Shown here piece after piece: positions 45,827-51,662 of a stretch of 64,000 bases of DNA (the first letter of the stretch is position 1; every line of letters begins with the position of its first letter). The notes under the pieces were generated by a model, which saw only the letters and a list, made by a program, of their open reading frames with translations, did not search any database and was not told where the DNA came from. The position numbers and the translations under genes were made by a program. The DNA is from an uncultured Cellulophaga sp. (GTDB lineage Bacteria > Bacteroidota > Bacteroidia > Flavobacteriales > Flavobacteriaceae): assembly GCA_947492955.1 (NCBI GenBank), contig CANLOV010000003.1, forward strand, positions 276,592 to 340,591, written 5' to 3'.

Positions 45827-45913
45827 ATCTTTTTACTTTTTTTCAAAAGTAAGCATGAAATATTTAAAAACGCTAGGGACAATTCTGTTTTTTAGAATTT
45901 ATAACAGCTATTA

Positions 45914-46156
45914 TTATTTATCTTTATAAATAAGCTCTAAAGCACCATTAAGATAGCCATGAAAAAGTAAATATTCATCTATAGTAATCTCTTCAAAAGC
46001 TTCATGTCCAATAACAGACTGAACAACTTTTAATACATTTTCGGACTCTTTAAATTTTTGTACTGTAAAATCGAATGGGCTTTCTGTTAGTGGAGATTTT
46101 CTGTCTTTTCTAAATCCTCTTATAATATTTTTGTTACCTAAAATAAAAAAATGCAT
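45914..46156 (-). CDS. small hypothetical protein, 'HEAFEE' family copy 1
   Basis: 80 aa; close paralogue of 47961-48233 (shared VVQSxIGHEAFEEIxxDEYLLFHGYLNGALELIY). Confidence 0.75.
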   Translation of the reverse strand: MHFFILGNKNIIRGFRKDRKSPLTESPFDFTVQKFKESENVLKVVQSVIGHEAFEEITIDEYLLFHGYLNGALELIYKDK

Positions 46157-46188
46157 TAATTGGTTTTTTGGTTGTAAACATTTGCATT

Positions 46189-46431
46189 TTACATATATTG
46201 ATACGAAACTACATGGGCATAGCGTAATTCTATTCTAGAAAGATAACTTTTTAGCTTTTTTAATTGAGAAAAATATTGGTTACCATCTAAACTACCTAAT
46301 TGCTGTTTTTCTTTTATTTTATTATATTTTTTTGCCACTTTCTTACGTGCCAATAAGTAGCAATACTCATCATAAAAAAAGTATAAGCCTTTATTTTTTA
46401 ACTCAACTATAATTTGGTTACCTATTTGCAT
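46189..46431 (-). CDS. small hypothetical protein
   Basis: 80-aa ORF co-oriented with 45914-46156; no recognised domain. Confidence 0.55.
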   Translation of the reverse strand: MQIGNQIIVELKNKGLYFFYDEYCYLLARKKVAKKYNKIKEKQQLGSLDGNQYFSQLKKLKSYLSRIELRYAHVVSYQYM

Positions 46432-46517
46432 ATATGGTTGTGTATATAAGGTTATTTTTCAAAAAAGTATGTTTTTTTTAGTTAAAAAAATACATCAATT
46501 AATTATATTTTACATAT

Positions 46518-46531
46518 TGACCTATTGGTCA
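46518..46531. promoter_or_regulatory. short dyad symmetry upstream of repressor-like gene
   Basis: TGACC-TATT-GGTCA about 98 nt before ATG of 46629. Confidence 0.4.
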
Positions 46532-46628
46532 TATTTCTCATTTATAATATATTTGTTTATTATACACAACAATATTATACAGAAATTCTGAATTTTAAAA
46601 ATATATTTTTCAAAAAATAAAGTTAATC

Positions 46629-47123
46629 ATGGCCGATATCAAAGACATTAATGAAAGATTTATTATTGCTGTTGAAACACTAGTTAAATCTAGAGCAACC
46701 AAAGATAAATCCACACTCTCCAACTCTTTAGGTATTAAGCAAAATAAGCTATCAGAAATTCTGGGAAAAAGAATGAACACGAGTTTAGAGCTTATTTCTG
46801 ATCTTTCTGAACTATACAATATTAATTTAGATTGGCTTATTTATGGTAGGGGAGAAATAAAAAAAGAGGAAGAAAGTAATTTTGTAAATGAACCTAGCTT
46901 AAATTACAACGCTGATATTGATCAAAAACTTATAAATCAAATGTGTAATTATGTAGGAGTGAAAGATAAAAAACAACTGATTATTTTTTTTAGACGAATT
47001 AACGAAAAGAGAACAAAATTTAATCCCGATAAATTAGAAATGAGGATTGAACGTTTAGAATTACTAGTAGGACAAATGACCTTAAATAATATTGAAATAA
47101 AGAAACACAAAACTACTATATAG
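46629..47123 (+). CDS. repressor-like HTH (XRE/CI-type) protein, copy 1
   Basis: TLSNSLGIKQNKLSEILGKRMNTSLELISDLSELYNINLDWLIYGRGEI. Confidence 0.75.
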   Translation: MADIKDINERFIIAVETLVKSRATKDKSTLSNSLGIKQNKLSEILGKRMNTSLELISDLSELYNINLDWLIYGRGEIKKEEESNFVNEPSLNYNADIDQKLINQMCNYVGVKDKKQLIIFFRRINEKRTKFNPDKLEMRIERLELLVGQMTLNNIEIKKHKTTI

Positions 47124-47286
47124 TATTTATATCATCTATAGACCCCATAATAATCTTATTCAAAGAACTAATACGCTTCTTAACTTGCTTAGATAAACGC
47201 TCTTTTATTTGCATCTGTTCATCTTCGCTATAAGACGATTTGTTATCTCTAAAATCTAATATTTGATTTAACAAGTTATTATTCAT
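47116..47286 (-). CDS. small ORF (56 aa) coupled to membrane gene
   Basis: MNNNLLNQILDFRDNKSSYSEDEQMQIKERLSKQVKKRISSLNKIIMGSIDDINTI; start overlaps upstream stop as TAATG; below the ORF-track cutoff. Confidence 0.55.
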   Translation of the reverse strand: MNNNLLNQILDFRDNKSSYSEDEQMQIKERLSKQVKKRISSLNKIIMGSIDDINTI

Positions 47287-47723
47287 TAGATTTTTTTATA
47301 CTTATTATAGAAATAATATGCTACCAGCAATACTGCAAATAAAAAATTAACTATAATTTTAGTTGTAAATTCATTAGTTGTTGTACTTCTAGCATCAAAA
47401 AGATAAATACTTAATTGAAAACTAAGCATAAAAATTGGAGCTAATATTATAAAACGATACGATTTATCTTTTGAGTTTACAAAAGCAAATATCCATCCAG
47501 ACAAAGCAATTACAAACATTGAAACAATAAAAATCCCAGATCTTAATGATTTAAAACCACTAAAACCTGAGTATTTTTTTAAATCACCAATATCATGTAT
47601 ATAGGGTAAAAATGATATAAATAATATTAAGAGCGATACCAATAAATCTTTTAAAACAACTTTTTTATATTTCGTCGTCCGATATTTCACTGTTTCTAAT
47701 GGATGATTCTTCTTGTAATTCAT
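47286..47723 (-). CDS. hypothetical integral membrane protein
   Basis: 145 aa with about four hydrophobic segments; start uncertain because it overlaps the lipoprotein gene. Confidence 0.65.
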   Translation of the reverse strand: MNYKKNHPLETVKYRTTKYKKVVLKDLLVSLLILFISFLPYIHDIGDLKKYSGFSGFKSLRSGIFIVSMFVIALSGWIFAFVNSKDKSYRFIILAPIFMLSFQLSIYLFDARSTTTNEFTTKIIVNFLFAVLLVAYYFYNKYKKI

Positions 47724-47808
47724 TATCTGCAGTTGTACTGTCTGTACAGCTTGTTATTAATAATACTAATGCAAATGCAGCTACTAAGGTAAATGTTACT
47801 TTTTTCAT
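47665..47808 (-). CDS. 47-aa small lipoprotein
   Basis: MKKVTFTLVAAFALVLLITSCTDSTTADNELQEESSIRNSEISDDEI; lipobox LITSC; below the ORF-track cutoff. Confidence 0.7.
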   Translation of the reverse strand: MKKVTFTLVAAFALVLLITSCTDSTTADNELQEESSIRNSEISDDEI

Positions 47809-47960
47809 AATTTTTTGTATTTTAATGTTTTAATACAAAAATTATAAAATATATACTGCTACTACTTAAAATGTTTAGCAATATATTAAATAGTTATCAA
47901 CATAACTAAAAGTATGGTATGAGAATTAATTTAGAAGGTTAAAATTATTGTTTTCAATAA

Positions 47961-48233
47961 CTATTTTATATCAGAATTATAAATAAGTTCCAAAGCTCCA
48001 TTTAGATAACCATGAAAAAGTAGATATTCATCTACACTAATTTCTTCAAAAGCTTCATGTCCAATAATAGACTGAACAACCTTTTGTATGTTTTCTATTT
48101 CGTTAAATCTCTGGATTGTAAATTCAAAAGGGTTTTCAGTTAATGGAAATTTTCTATCTCTTCTAAATGCCTTTATAAAGTCTTTCGTGCCTAAAATAAA
48201 AAACACATGTTTTGATTTATAATCTAATAACAT
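47961..48233 (-). CDS. small hypothetical protein, 'HEAFEE' family copy 2
   Basis: 90 aa; close paralogue of 45914-46156. Confidence 0.75.
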   Translation of the reverse strand: MLLDYKSKHVFFILGTKDFIKAFRRDRKFPLTENPFEFTIQRFNEIENIQKVVQSIIGHEAFEEISVDEYLLFHGYLNGALELIYNSDIK

Positions 48234-48366
48234 AATTTTATTTTATGTCTTTTTTCATGAAATTTAACCTCATTTTTTAACAAAAAATTATAGACATTTG
48301 GTTATAAGCCTCTCTTTCCTTTATCTTAGCTATAAAGCAACAAATATCAAAGTCTAAAATTTTAAC

Positions 48367-48417
48367 GCAATTCAAATATACAAATATGTTTGAATAATTC
48401 AAATATATTTGAATTGC
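48367..48417. promoter_or_regulatory. compound operator-like inverted repeats upstream of repressor-like gene
   Basis: GCAATTCAAATATA...TATATTTGAATTGC outer arms; TTCAAATATATTTGAA perfect palindrome (48398-48413) and degenerate TTCAAATATACAAATATGTTTGAA (48371-48394). Confidence 0.75.
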
Positions 48418-48437
48418 ATTTTTTAAACTTATAATTT

Positions 48438-48911
48438 ATGAAAGGTTTTTATAATAGAATTAAATCTATAGCTACATATTACGATTACAAAAGCGTTAAT
48501 GAATTCGCTTTATCTGGACTTGATTATAAATCTTCAGAAAAATTAAATAGGCTTAAAAATGACGATAATTATCCATCTGTAAAAATTATATTAGACATTT
48601 TAAACAATTTTAAAAAAATAAATATCAATTGGCTTTTAACAGGAAGAGAGTCTATGCTTGTAACTACTTTTGAGCAAAATTTAATAACTGCCGAAAGCAG
48701 TAAATTTAACACAGCTAATCCTTTAGAAGAATTTAGTGAATTAGAGATTGTGGAGTATATTTTTTGTAATAAAGATAAATTTTATAATCTAAAATCTTTT
48801 AATGAGTTGCTAAAAGATATGGATGAAGATATAAAAATTAAAGAAATGAATCGTATGATAAACGAGTTAAAAGATTTAGAAATAAAAAGTAATAAGCTAT
48901 TTAAAAAATAA
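48438..48911 (+). CDS. repressor-like HTH protein, copy 2
   Basis: SVNEFALSGLDYKSSEKLNRLKNDDNYPSVKIILDILNNFKKININWLLTGRESML; CI-like 'INxxWLLTG' signature. Confidence 0.75.
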   Translation: MKGFYNRIKSIATYYDYKSVNEFALSGLDYKSSEKLNRLKNDDNYPSVKIILDILNNFKKININWLLTGRESMLVTTFEQNLITAESSKFNTANPLEEFSELEIVEYIFCNKDKFYNLKSFNELLKDMDEDIKIKEMNRMINELKDLEIKSNKLFKK

Positions 48912-49082
48912 ACGTTCTTCTATTAATTTCTTTTCTTTTTTTAAGTTTTCTAATCTATTTACTTTCTTTTCTCGTTCTTTAAATATCATCGTTGTCAATT
49001 CATCATCATACATAAAATTAACAATTTCTGTATCTAAAAAGCCCTTATTAATAAGCTGATTATTTCTTTTTTTATTATTCAT
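48897..49082 (-). CDS. small charged coiled-coil-like protein
   Basis: 61 aa MNNKKRNNQLIN...; start overlaps upstream stop by 8 nt (ATGAATAA). Confidence 0.6.
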   Translation of the reverse strand: MNNKKRNNQLINKGFLDTEIVNFMYDDELTTMIFKEREKKVNRLENLKKEKKLIEERLFFK

Positions 49083-50190
49083 CTAATTTTTCTAATGTTG
49101 GGTTAATAATTTCTTCTTTCCATCTTTCTTTATTAGTAACATGCTTATTTTTAACAGACTCTACAATTAGTTTGTACATAACAAAACGTATTTTAGATTT
49201 TAATTTTTCAATAGATTCATAATTATCTCCCATATATGTTGAAAAAACAAATACAGTTATAATTATTATAGTTGCGACAATAAAATTAATTATTAATTCC
49301 TCTTTAGTATTATATGCCTTTTCTTCTAGTAATATCCATGAAATGAAATAAAGGCCAATGAAAGCTATTACATAGGCTAAAATCAAAAATGGCTTTTTTG
49401 TCTTCTCTTCCATAAATTTGGTTATATAGGCCAATATTAAAGCAAAAGACAAATAAGAAACCTCGACACCACAAGCATATAAAAAAATTGATAACCACCG
49501 AAAATCAAAAAAATCTCCTTCCACGTCATTATCTTCTAAATGGAAAACATATGCAAATCTAGCCACTACTATAAAAATAATTGCAACACCAACCACCCAT
49601 TTAAAAGAAAGGGGTTTTCTTTTTTTATTATTTACACCTACCTTATTTAAAGTAAAATTTACAATCTCATTTTCCCATCTTTCTTTATTAACAACATGAT
49701 TGTTTTCAACAGACTCTACAATCATTTTATTCATAACAAAACGTATTTTAGATTTCAATTTTGCTGTAGAATTGTAATTCTCTTTTATAAATTTAGATAA
49801 AATATAAATTGTAATAATTATACCTATCGATGCTAAAAAACAAATTAATAATTCTTCTTTGGTATTATATACACCTTCATCTAACAATATCCATGAAATA
49901 AAATAAAAACCTACAAAAGAAATAACATAGGATAAAAATAAAAATGGTTTTTTTGCATTTTTTTCCATAAATCTAGTTGCATAAGCTAGAATAAAAGCGA
50001 ATGATAAATAAGAAACCTCAACACCACAAGTATATAAAAAAGTAGATAGCTGCTGGAAATCAAGAAAATCACCTTCAACGTCATTATCTCCTATATAAAA
50101 AATATATGCAAATCTAGATATTACAATAAAAACAGCAGTAATGCTTATTACCAAATTAAGAGGAAAACTTATTCTTTTTATATTATTCAT
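49075..50190 (-). CDS. membrane protein with two tandem copies of a multi-TM + conserved-tail domain (fusion)
   Basis: 371 aa; each half has a D(N)DVEGDFxxFxxLSxFLYxCGVEVSYLSFAxILAY core and KLKSKIRFVMxKxIVESV tail. Confidence 0.85.
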   Translation of the reverse strand: MNNIKRISFPLNLVISITAVFIVISRFAYIFYIGDNDVEGDFLDFQQLSTFLYTCGVEVSYLSFAFILAYATRFMEKNAKKPFLFLSYVISFVGFYFISWILLDEGVYNTKEELLICFLASIGIIITIYILSKFIKENYNSTAKLKSKIRFVMNKMIVESVENNHVVNKERWENEIVNFTLNKVGVNNKKRKPLSFKWVVGVAIIFIVVARFAYVFHLEDNDVEGDFFDFRWLSIFLYACGVEVSYLSFALILAYITKFMEEKTKKPFLILAYVIAFIGLYFISWILLEEKAYNTKEELIINFIVATIIIITVFVFSTYMGDNYESIEKLKSKIRFVMYKLIVESVKNKHVTNKERWKEEIINPTLEKLDE

Positions 50191-50743
50191 CTAATTTATC
50201 TAAAGTAGGATCTACAATTTCTTCTTTCCATCTTTCTTTATTAATTATATGCTTATTTTTAACAGACTCTACAATCATTTTATTCATAACAAAACGTATT
50301 TTAGATTTTAATTTCTCTACAGTCTCTTGATTATTATTTATGAATCTAGACATATAATATACTACAAAAATTATCGTAGTTGAAGCAATAAAACTGATTA
50401 TCAATTCTTTTTTTGTACTGTATTCTTTAGCTTCTAAAAAAATCCAAGAAATAAAAAATAACCCTACAAAAGAAATCACATAAGACAAAAATATAAATGG
50501 TTTTTTTGCATTCTCTTCCATAAACCGAGTAGCATATGCTAATATCAATGCAAAAAACAAATAAGAAACCTCAGCACCAAAGGTGTATATAAAAACAGAC
50601 AACCAAGTAAAGCCAAAAAAATTACCCTCAACGTCTTTTTCTCCAATAAAAAAAATATAAATAAATCTAATCGTTACTACAAAAATAACAGCGAAACAAA
50701 TACTCCACTTAAGAGTAAGGTTCTTTCTTCTTATATTATTCAT
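50183..50743 (-). CDS. membrane protein, single copy of the same domain
   Basis: Same core and tail; ends EKLKSKIRFVMNKMIVESVKNKHIINKERWKEEIVDPTLDKLDE. Confidence 0.85.
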   Translation of the reverse strand: MNNIRRKNLTLKWSICFAVIFVVTIRFIYIFFIGEKDVEGNFFGFTWLSVFIYTFGAEVSYLFFALILAYATRFMEENAKKPFIFLSYVISFVGLFFISWIFLEAKEYSTKKELIISFIASTTIIFVVYYMSRFINNNQETVEKLKSKIRFVMNKMIVESVKNKHIINKERWKEEIVDPTLDKLDE

Positions 50744-51326
50744 CTAACTTATCTAAAGTAGGATCTACAATTTCTTCTTTCCATCTTTCTTTATTAATGA
50801 TATGCTTATTTTTAACAGATTCTACAATCATTTTATGCATTACAAAACGTATTTTAGATTTTAATTCTGTAATAGTCATTAATTCTTTATTTAAAAATTT
50901 CATTAAGAAAACAATACTAAAAGTAGCCAAGAAAGAAAGCGACAAACTGCCAACAACCTCAAATGTTTCATTAAATTTTTCATTATCCAAAAATATCCAA
51001 AACACATAAAAAAACCCTATCAAGATTATCAAATATGAACTCAACCTAAAAACCTTCTTAAACTTATTTTCAGTGTGGAAAATTGTTGAATACCATAACA
51101 ATAACCCTGTAAAAATTGTAAAACACTGAGAACCAAAATCCCACAAAAAAAAAGACAACCATTCAAACCCAAAAAAATCACCTTTAACATCGTTCTCTCC
51201 TAAAAAAAAGATATAAATAAATCTACTTAATATTATTACTAGTAATAATAAACTAATAAGCAATGCCTGAAACGTGATTCCTTTTTTTCTTAACCGGTGA
51301 AAGAATTTCGATTTGTTTATCTTCAT
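50736..51326 (-). CDS. membrane protein, divergent TM region with near-identical tail
   Basis: Ends TELKSKIRFVMHKMIVESVKNKHIINKERWKEEIVDPTLDKLDE. Confidence 0.85.
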   Translation of the reverse strand: MKINKSKFFHRLRKKGITFQALLISLLLLVIILSRFIYIFFLGENDVKGDFFGFEWLSFFLWDFGSQCFTIFTGLLLWYSTIFHTENKFKKVFRLSSYLIILIGFFYVFWIFLDNEKFNETFEVVGSLSLSFLATFSIVFLMKFLNKELMTITELKSKIRFVMHKMIVESVKNKHIINKERWKEEIVDPTLDKLDE

Positions 51327-51330
51327 TGAC

Positions 51331-51384
51331 TTAGTCTTTGGTAAAAGCTGTTGCTAATAAAATTTCTACTACTAACCTATTCAT
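51331..51384 (-). other. possible 17-aa leader peptide or remnant upstream of the tandem membrane genes
   Basis: ATG...TAA reading MNRLVVEILLATAFTKD, ending just before ATG at 51326. Confidence 0.3.
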
Positions 51385-51654
51385 TTTAAAAATTTACAGA
51401 GGTTTATATTATTGATAAACATATTTAAAAAACATCCTAGCATAAAAAATCTAATTACAAATTTTACATACTTTTATAAACAAAAAAACAGTGTTATAAT
51501 ACTGCATCTAATATATTAATCTATTACATAATAAAACTACATAAAACCTTAAAAAAAATAAGATTTTATACATTATATATTATCTTCTTATGATACTAAC
51601 TAAATTGTTTTATAAAGTACAATAGCTAAACATTTCTTTCTTCAATTATTTATC

Positions 51655-51662
51655 TAATTTTG
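51655..51662 (+). promoter_or_regulatory. candidate -7 element TAATTTTG
   Basis: TAnnTTTG match 13 nt before ATG at 51676. Confidence 0.35.

Follow-up and report, generated by a model that had tools for sequence, protein, structure and literature searches.

A candidate peptide-signalling cassette of flavobacterial chromosomes and phages, with one complete and one partial copy in an uncultured Cellulophaga

In the arbitrium/RRNPPA systems of Bacillus phages and bacteria (AimP-AimR, Phr-Rap), a short exported precursor with a variable C-terminal peptide is encoded beside its receptor, a cytoplasmic tetratricopeptide repeat (TPR) protein; in phage Rap/Phr systems, too, some precursors carry the peptide in tandem copies (PMC11343458). 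Agr, ComQXPA, and ComCDE couple a polymorphic precursor to a polytopic membrane receptor, the two being exchanged as a matched cassette, and phage lysogeny modules may contain small lipoproteins or membrane proteins of the Ltp/Sie type. Here we describe a cassette that shares traits with each of these, found in an accessory island of an uncultured Cellulophaga sp. (GCA_947492955.1, contig CANLOV010000003.1, positions 276,592 to 340,591; this whole 64,000-nucleotide stretch is referred to as the window). It consists of a mini-lipoprotein gene, a gene for a protein with four transmembrane segments (four-TM protein), a coupled small open reading frame (ORF), and a convergent gene for a helix-turn-helix (HTH) protein. 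We consider it, with a probability of roughly 45%, to be a flavobacterial peptide-signalling cassette composed of a peptide precursor, a membrane receptor, and a transcription regulator, arbitrium-like when borne by phages. The gene families and their layout, the gene overlap, the repeats under amino-acid constraint, the region-specific variability, and the co-divergence reported below were computed directly.

The island holds one complete copy of the cassette (block 1) and one partial copy (block 2): block 1 has all parts, whereas block 2 has an HTH gene facing four tandem four-TM units and no lipoprotein. The cassette genes are as follows.

46629..47123, plus strand: HTH-1, a regulator of the CI-repressor type (PF07022, Phage_CI_repr, 27.7 bits; cut-off, 22)
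47116..47286, minus strand: small ORF 1, 56 residues, coupled to the TM gene and overlapping the 3' end of HTH-1 by 8 nt
47286..47723, minus strand: four-TM protein of block 1, 145 residues, receptor candidate (profile E value, 1.9e-18)
47665..47808, minus strand: mini-lipoprotein, 47 residues, peptide-precursor candidate, with a 59-nt, out-of-frame overlap with the TM gene
48438..48911, plus strand: HTH-2, a small regulator (1.5e-9 with an HTH profile built without window sequences)
48897..49082, minus strand: small ORF 2, 61 residues, coupled to the TM array and overlapping the 3' end of HTH-2 by 15 nt
49075..50190, minus strand: fused double four-TM gene, 371 residues, two units (profile domains, 8.3e-26 and 1.9e-24; repeat D1)
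50183..50743, minus strand: four-TM unit, 186 residues (profile, 9e-29)
50736..51326, minus strand: four-TM unit, 196 residues, the first gene of the block-2 operon (profile, 5.6e-31)
51334..51384, minus strand: 17-codon ORF MNRLVVEILLATAFTKD, known as sequence only, at the place that the lipoprotein gene takes in other cassettes

All ORFs of the original prediction, which had been made from the letters of this DNA, proved to lie where it had put them. The convergent overlaps of 8 and 15 nt between HTH gene and small ORF were likewise confirmed, as was the coupling of the small ORF to the membrane gene, by TAATG in block 1 and by ATGAATAA in block 2, where the latter junction links every gene.

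The conserved unit of these loci is the pair of mini-lipoprotein and four-TM protein, and not, as had been proposed, one centred on a family of small proteins named HEAFEE; the 47-residue lipoprotein ORF had been rightly noted, but its role as the conserved partner of the TM gene had been missed. The mini-lipoprotein gene sits upstream of the TM gene, often overlapping its start by 40 to 105 nt in another frame. Such an overlapping mini-lipoprotein was detected for 25 of 44 four-TM genes versus 1 of 407 control genes from the same loci; the detection misses locus L061, whose lipoprotein was seen by three-frame translation. The proteins are 44 to 62 residues long, or up to 93 where the peptide is repeated, and share a layout of signal peptide, Cys, acidic linker, a motif around (A/G)(I/V)(D/E)K.(E/K)I, and a short tail, with a lipobox in most copies. 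The window copy scores 1.4e-10 with a profile of non-window mini-lipoproteins; the next of the 304 window ORFs scores 0.005, as expected because of the shared signal peptide. An unbiased search of 400 genomes with a DNA pattern for AIDKD[KE][IV] hit three mini-lipoproteins, two of them new; the gene of each precedes and overlaps a four-TM gene. A stricter motif, AIDKD.I..PG, was discarded as too variable: its four chance-like hits on genome contigs and three on viral contigs lay in no mini-lipoprotein.

The C-terminal peptide, of about 12 residues, is present in two to four copies in several precursors: IEKTRIKVPANG twice (genomes G301 and G313), GIDRKDVQP.NK twice (G309), VDRTKIINGDKKS three times (locus L126), VDKTQLINGDKK four times (L128), and GIDKDKVVPPGEKGRQQ twice (L061); the precursor on phage contig L198 has it twice, as IEKGTPIPKNG and VEKGTPPPGNG. 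Counted against the first copy, the nucleotide differences of the later copies are 36 synonymous and 0 nonsynonymous over the stretches compared, which were picked as protein-identical parts, with L061 not counted and L198 represented only by the five-residue core EKGTP, whose flanks differ. The copies are old enough for silent sites to have diverged, yet they encode the same peptide. In a comparison of ten genus genomes, identity is 70% for the signal peptide and 18% for the tail. Constancy inside a gene together with variability between species is the pattern that a peptide signal would leave.

Ten genus genomes carry a lipoprotein/TM pair between tsaE and ald. In these, the two external loops of the TM protein (the four-TM topology was assigned from hydropathy and charge) are 28% and 39% identical, and the cytoplasmic loop and tail are 77% and 78% identical. 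Lipoprotein and TM identities correlate after removal of three flanking genes (partial r, 0.63-0.74; permutation p, <=0.0006). Two comparisons illustrate this: G305 and G315 have flanks that are 98-100% identical, with lipoproteins at 73% and TM proteins at 80%, whereas G305 and G308 share a pair type, at 92% and 93%, respectively. Linkage contributes, but tsaE and ald are equally close-linked and yet do not follow the divergence of the pair. At its tsaE-ald locus, the genome from which the window comes encodes another pair (G000:C4:214640-215137; L192, 4138-4896), whose lipoprotein tail, EQSVRRDSVRK, is without the usual motif and repeats.

A profile of 38 non-window four-TM members matched all four window TM ORFs and nothing else among the 304; the test is not fully independent, since some of these members had originally been found with window-containing profiles. 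Membership of the block-1 protein is also supported by L144, which came to light through its lipoprotein motif alone, and by BLASTP matches to L005 (3e-5) and to L117 (8e-29; 52% identical over 81 residues). The block-2 TM genes are four tandem copies of a unit of ~553 nt, the 371-residue ORF being a head-to-tail fusion of two; the units are 50-63% identical, their frames are intact, and they are related to the block-1 protein only via the family profile. The 17-codon ORF MNRLVVEILLATAFTKD, in which no lipobox was found, is perhaps a lipoprotein remnant or a leader. Relatives of the block-2 units occur elsewhere in the Flavobacteriaceae and in a second family of the order, and a wider profile added more. 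Four-TM matches were obtained in at least 18 of 398 genomes of the order (E value, 1e-4) and in at least 11 of 18 of the genus (1e-3), counts that are lower bounds because the larger scans score only the best few candidates per genome; outside the order, the class scan yielded only six borderline matches (5e-6 to 8e-5). The four-TM proteins gave only sub-threshold matches to named families, and the best E value of a PDB sequence search was 0.086. None of the four-TM proteins scanned, from the window or from relatives, had a kinase domain. TPR families gave no match above cut-off to the HTH proteins of the window or to the four-TM proteins, and there is no curated family for the lipoprotein, for the four-TM protein, or for the small ORFs. 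That no named system has this layout, as originally stated, holds against Pfam, NCBIfam, PHROGs, and PADLOC.

Elsewhere in the genus, between porX (PF00072 plus PF08665) and tsaE, genomes G315, G308, G305, and G312 (loci L185-L188) have tandem genes of ~400 residues, each with two four-TM units, facing an HTH gene; copy number and broken copies vary between these close species.

A convergent HTH gene faces not only these arrays in G305, G308, G312, and G315: it also faces the cassette in both window blocks, at L060, L067, L069, L117, L119, L121, L125, L133, and L134, on Cellulophaga phage Ingeline, and on L198. The CI-like signature reported for both window HTH proteins is real insofar as they have a 24-residue INxxWL..GR stretch in common (E value, 0.009), their only shared stretch, but HTH-1 alone passes the Pfam CI-repressor cut-off. 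HTH-1 matches the HTH protein of Ingeline (tblastn E value, 2e-4), whose gene has the same neighbours; HTH-2 is homologous to the HTH protein of L134 (BLASTP, 6e-11 over 145 residues), and neither it nor two scanned relatives matched an HTH family. For the HTH proteins and the small ORFs, the genes that went into the profiles were picked by position. Small ORF 1 is homologous to the small ORF in the same position at L117 (BLASTP, 3e-9) and small ORF 2 has no clear homologue; the two are not alignable to each other, and a single small-ORF family was rejected for want of a common profile. A gene for a LuxR-type response regulator (PF00072 plus PF00196 at L123) lies immediately upstream of the lipoprotein/TM pair at L123, L130, L134, and L135. 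No partner kinase was noticed near any of these four pairs, two of which are at a rimP-nusA-like locus.

Ingeline is an isolated phage with an integrase and a LuxR gene that was judged potentially temperate (PMC8776804). Its genes follow the block-1 layout: the HTH gene faces a small ORF, next come the TM gene and the lipoprotein gene that overlaps it, and the integrase gene lies beyond a second small HTH-like ORF. The lipoprotein, TM gene, and small ORF lie between integrase and repressor. Its TM protein is 45% identical (6e-40) to that of L198, an IMG/VR contig with the two-peptide lipoprotein, a TM gene, a convergent HTH gene, a LuxR-type gene, and a primase-like gene; in both phages the cassette adjoins the repressor and the LuxR-type gene is on the divergent side. 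Most scans of viral contigs gave no match; Ingeline and L198 came from three scans. Among prophages, L117, recognized by a RecT-like gene, has a small ORF, TM protein, and lipoprotein that resemble those of block 1, its TM gene being broken by stops, and L060 has an integrase (PF13102). Loci L062, L063, and L066, from two genera, have the lipoprotein, TM gene, and small ORF at a constant position next to hisS and no HTH gene. By eye, the cassette at L068 (8125-11265) lies beside a gene for a TIR-like protein and that at L116 (5602-9961) beside one for an OLD-like ATPase; these neighbours are possibly defence-island genes.

In the signalling mechanism we propose, the mini-lipoprotein would be exported, and its C-terminal peptide of ~10-12 residues would be the signal, either released or shown at the cell surface. 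The four-TM protein, made by translational overlap, would be the cognate membrane receptor, variable outside and conserved inside, whose cytoplasmic tail together with the coupled small ORF would relay its state to a DNA-binding regulator: the convergent HTH protein in the window, and a LuxR-type response regulator in another clade. The HTH protein may repress itself and the divergent gene (HEAFEE in the window, early genes in phages like Ingeline), so that in phages the cassette would inform the choice between lysis and lysogeny, much as in arbitrium. Block 2, which lacks a lipoprotein but has four receptor units, might be an orphan-receptor array, similar to the HTH-facing array between porX and tsaE in congeners. 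We infer all of peptide secretion, cleavage or release, binding, signal relay, repression, and HEAFEE as the output. A "repressor-controlled membrane system" serving immunity, signalling, or defence had been suggested for this island: its arrangement of TM gene, small ORF, and convergent HTH gene does recur in Flavobacteriaceae, prophages, and Ingeline, and we favour signalling over defence. More tentative is the wider proposition that this is a peptide-pheromone system native to the Bacteroidota, built of repeated, strain-specific lipoprotein peptides, a new family of four-TM receptors, and HTH/LuxR regulators, which would serve the Flavobacteriaceae and which their temperate phages would have adopted for arbitrium-like decisions between lysis and lysogeny.

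Several observations weigh against signalling. The window lipoprotein has no repeats and a diverged motif (SIRNSEIS versus AIDKDEIT), and block 2 has no lipoprotein. No kinase, transporter, protease, or known receptor family was found in the cassettes; tethering is the norm for lipoproteins, and that the peptide is released is an assumption. Co-divergence alone is no proof of interaction because adjacent genes recombine together. The output is not constant, because the HTH gene is missing from many loci (the hisS clade and most ald-clade loci outside the arrays), and although HEAFEE, placed where phages have their early operon, could be a regulated output, this is a guess from position. AlphaFold2 models of HEAFEE and of a TM unit were of low confidence (mean predicted local distance difference test scores, 54 and 46), too weak to use.

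The possible rivals rank as superinfection exclusion, then an envelope gauge with a tethered ligand, then toxin/immunity. Even exclusion we regard as unlikely. It would make the cassette a moron of the lysogeny module that confers phage immunity, its lipoprotein and four-TM protein blocking adsorption or DNA entry of other phages; chromosomal copies would derive from prophage decay, and the variable parts would track an arms race with phages. The Ingeline cassette, between integrase and repressor, is comparable in place to Ltp in a lysogeny module of the TP-J34 type (PMC3952083), prophages L117 and L060 carry the cassette, two loci (L068 and L116) adjoin the defence-like genes, and the window island is a GC-poor insertion without a recombinase. 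A plug, however, would not be expected to contain tandem peptides kept identical at the amino-acid level or a constant cytoplasmic tail, nor to pair recurrently with HTH or LuxR genes; in addition, the chromosomal positions (tsaE-ald and hisS) are long-standing across genera, and PADLOC gives only weak matches, to the HTH domain of HTH-1. Less likely again is an envelope sensor, in which the anchored lipoprotein would bind the four-TM protein in cis and report envelope state to an HTH or LuxR output with no signal between cells, much as the lipoprotein RcsF reports envelope state to IgaA. The lipobox of most copies and the porX neighbourhood in the genus suit such a sensor, as does the translational overlap, which favours linked synthesis within a single cell. 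The hypervariable tails of the ligand and the swapping of cassettes among close relatives fit a polymorphic signal better, and an identical peptide repeated within the precursor also speaks against a tethered gauge.

That the lipoprotein yields a bacteriocin-like peptide to which the four-TM protein confers immunity, with block 2 and the genus arrays as orphan immunity genes, seems improbable to us: matched hypervariable pairs and orphan four-TM arrays do resemble polymorphic toxin/immunity loci, but the peptides are hydrophilic and charged (e.g., IDKDEIEEPGDR), which sets them apart from membrane-active bacteriocins; genes for modification or export were not seen, and regulators are frequent partners. 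We give least credence to the view that the two blocks are decayed prophage or satellite remnants of which only the repressor ends were kept and which have no present function. It would account for the lack of an integrase, for the orphan status of HEAFEE and ORF 46189, and for the match of block-1 parts to prophage L117; against it, none of the ORFs is broken, both blocks show precise coupling, the four TM units have kept their frames at 50-63% identity, and relatives are conserved at fixed chromosomal positions.

The remaining features concern the island itself and the genes and sites outside the cassette.

45860..51655, no strand: accessory island (ends approximate), between kynU and an O-methyltransferase gene
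45914..46156, minus strand: HEAFEE-1, an 80-residue orphan protein, 75% identical to HEAFEE-2
46189..46431, minus strand: an 80-residue orphan ORF, divergent from HTH-1; ORF only
47961..48233, minus strand: HEAFEE-2, a 90-residue orphan protein, divergent from HTH-2 and paralogous to HEAFEE-1
48396..48415, no strand: perfect 20-bp palindrome AATTCAAATATATTTGAATT, operator candidate, between HEAFEE-2 and HTH-2

The flanking genes are kynU and the O-methyltransferase gene, as the original prediction had said, and comparison of sister genomes at their junction found the island to be an insertion missing from congeners. The two genes are 5.8 kb apart in the window versus 60-85 bp in 8 of the 16 congeners read; 7 further congeners have a single gene of 152-162 residues between them, and in G307, the other one read, kynU is not at the site. 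The junction takes up different genes, because several congeners hold that gene there (L072-L076, L079, and L085; acetyltransferase-like by eye). The methyltransferase gene is present in 18 of 18 genomes of the genus. GC content is 24% in the island versus 30-35% in its flanks; no tRNA was found at the island and no recombinase ORF within it, and the window contains no integrase or phage structural gene.

The view of the island as a duplicated module survives as a shared architecture but not as a recent duplication of the whole, and tandem duplication of the entire module was rejected: HEAFEE is the only recent duplicate, its DNA forming a 253-nt direct repeat (45898-46150 and 47951-48203; 79% identical), and the pair are clear paralogues, as claimed, whereas the HTH genes and small ORFs are barely or not alignable. 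No HEAFEE homologue was found outside the window's own genome in 301 genomes of the family, 18 of the genus, plasmids, or phages; a weak match at L003 was due to chance, lying inside a glycosyltransferase-like ORF. HEAFEE as the conserved core was rejected accordingly, the outcome that the original prediction had itself named as telling against a module built round it. ORF 46189 likewise had no homologue outside its own genome in what was searched; it matched no Pfam or NCBIfam family and had only weak matches to unnamed PHROGs. The arm length of palindrome AATTCAAATATATTTGAATT was matched in 7 of 500 shuffles; the comparable region of block 1 showed no palindrome excess (130 of 500), and an operator there was rejected.

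We found no description of a peptide signal/receptor system in Flavobacteriia, or of this cassette, in the open-access literature. It is the gene families and layout that we regard as new; as a working principle, the cassette would be a new kind of peptide signalling. If so, the peptides of a widespread bacterial group form polymorphic "dialects," some of them borne by temperate phages, and communication-guided lysogeny would reach beyond the Bacillota via unrelated proteins. Should the signalling reading fail, there would still be a membrane module, so far undescribed, that recurs in phages and chromosomes.

Compared with described systems, the cassette resembles CI-type phage repressors in that HTH-1 passes PF07022 and the Ingeline HTH gene takes the same position, but HTH-2 and two scanned relatives match no HTH family, and the facing genes are lipoprotein/TM cassettes. 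With Ltp/Sie it shares a small lipoprotein in a phage lysogeny module, between integrase and repressor, in Ingeline but not in the window; it differs in pairing a short-motif lipoprotein of 44-62 residues with a four-TM gene, and in that many copies are chromosomal. The overlap of these two genes, one of the features by which we define the cassette, is present in block 1 (59 nt) and not in block 2. Like Agr, ComQXPA, and ComCDE, it would exchange a polymorphic precursor and a polytopic membrane receptor as a matched cassette; unlike them, it has no histidine kinase domain, no processing enzyme of the AgrB/ComQ type was seen in the neighbourhoods read, and it has HTH proteins or LuxR-type response regulators that stand alone as its putative outputs. 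From arbitrium/RRNPPA it is set apart by its phylum, by a receptor candidate that is a four-TM membrane protein and not a cytoplasmic TPR protein, and by a precursor that is a lipoprotein, with no sequence relation found. In relatives, the putative propeptide has a lipobox as export signal and carries its C-terminal peptide in tandem, whereas the copy in the window is without a repeat. The likeness to those systems lies in the pairing of a short, putatively exported precursor of variable C-terminal peptide with a presumed receptor, in the tandem peptides of some precursors, and in the position of the cassette beside a phage repressor.

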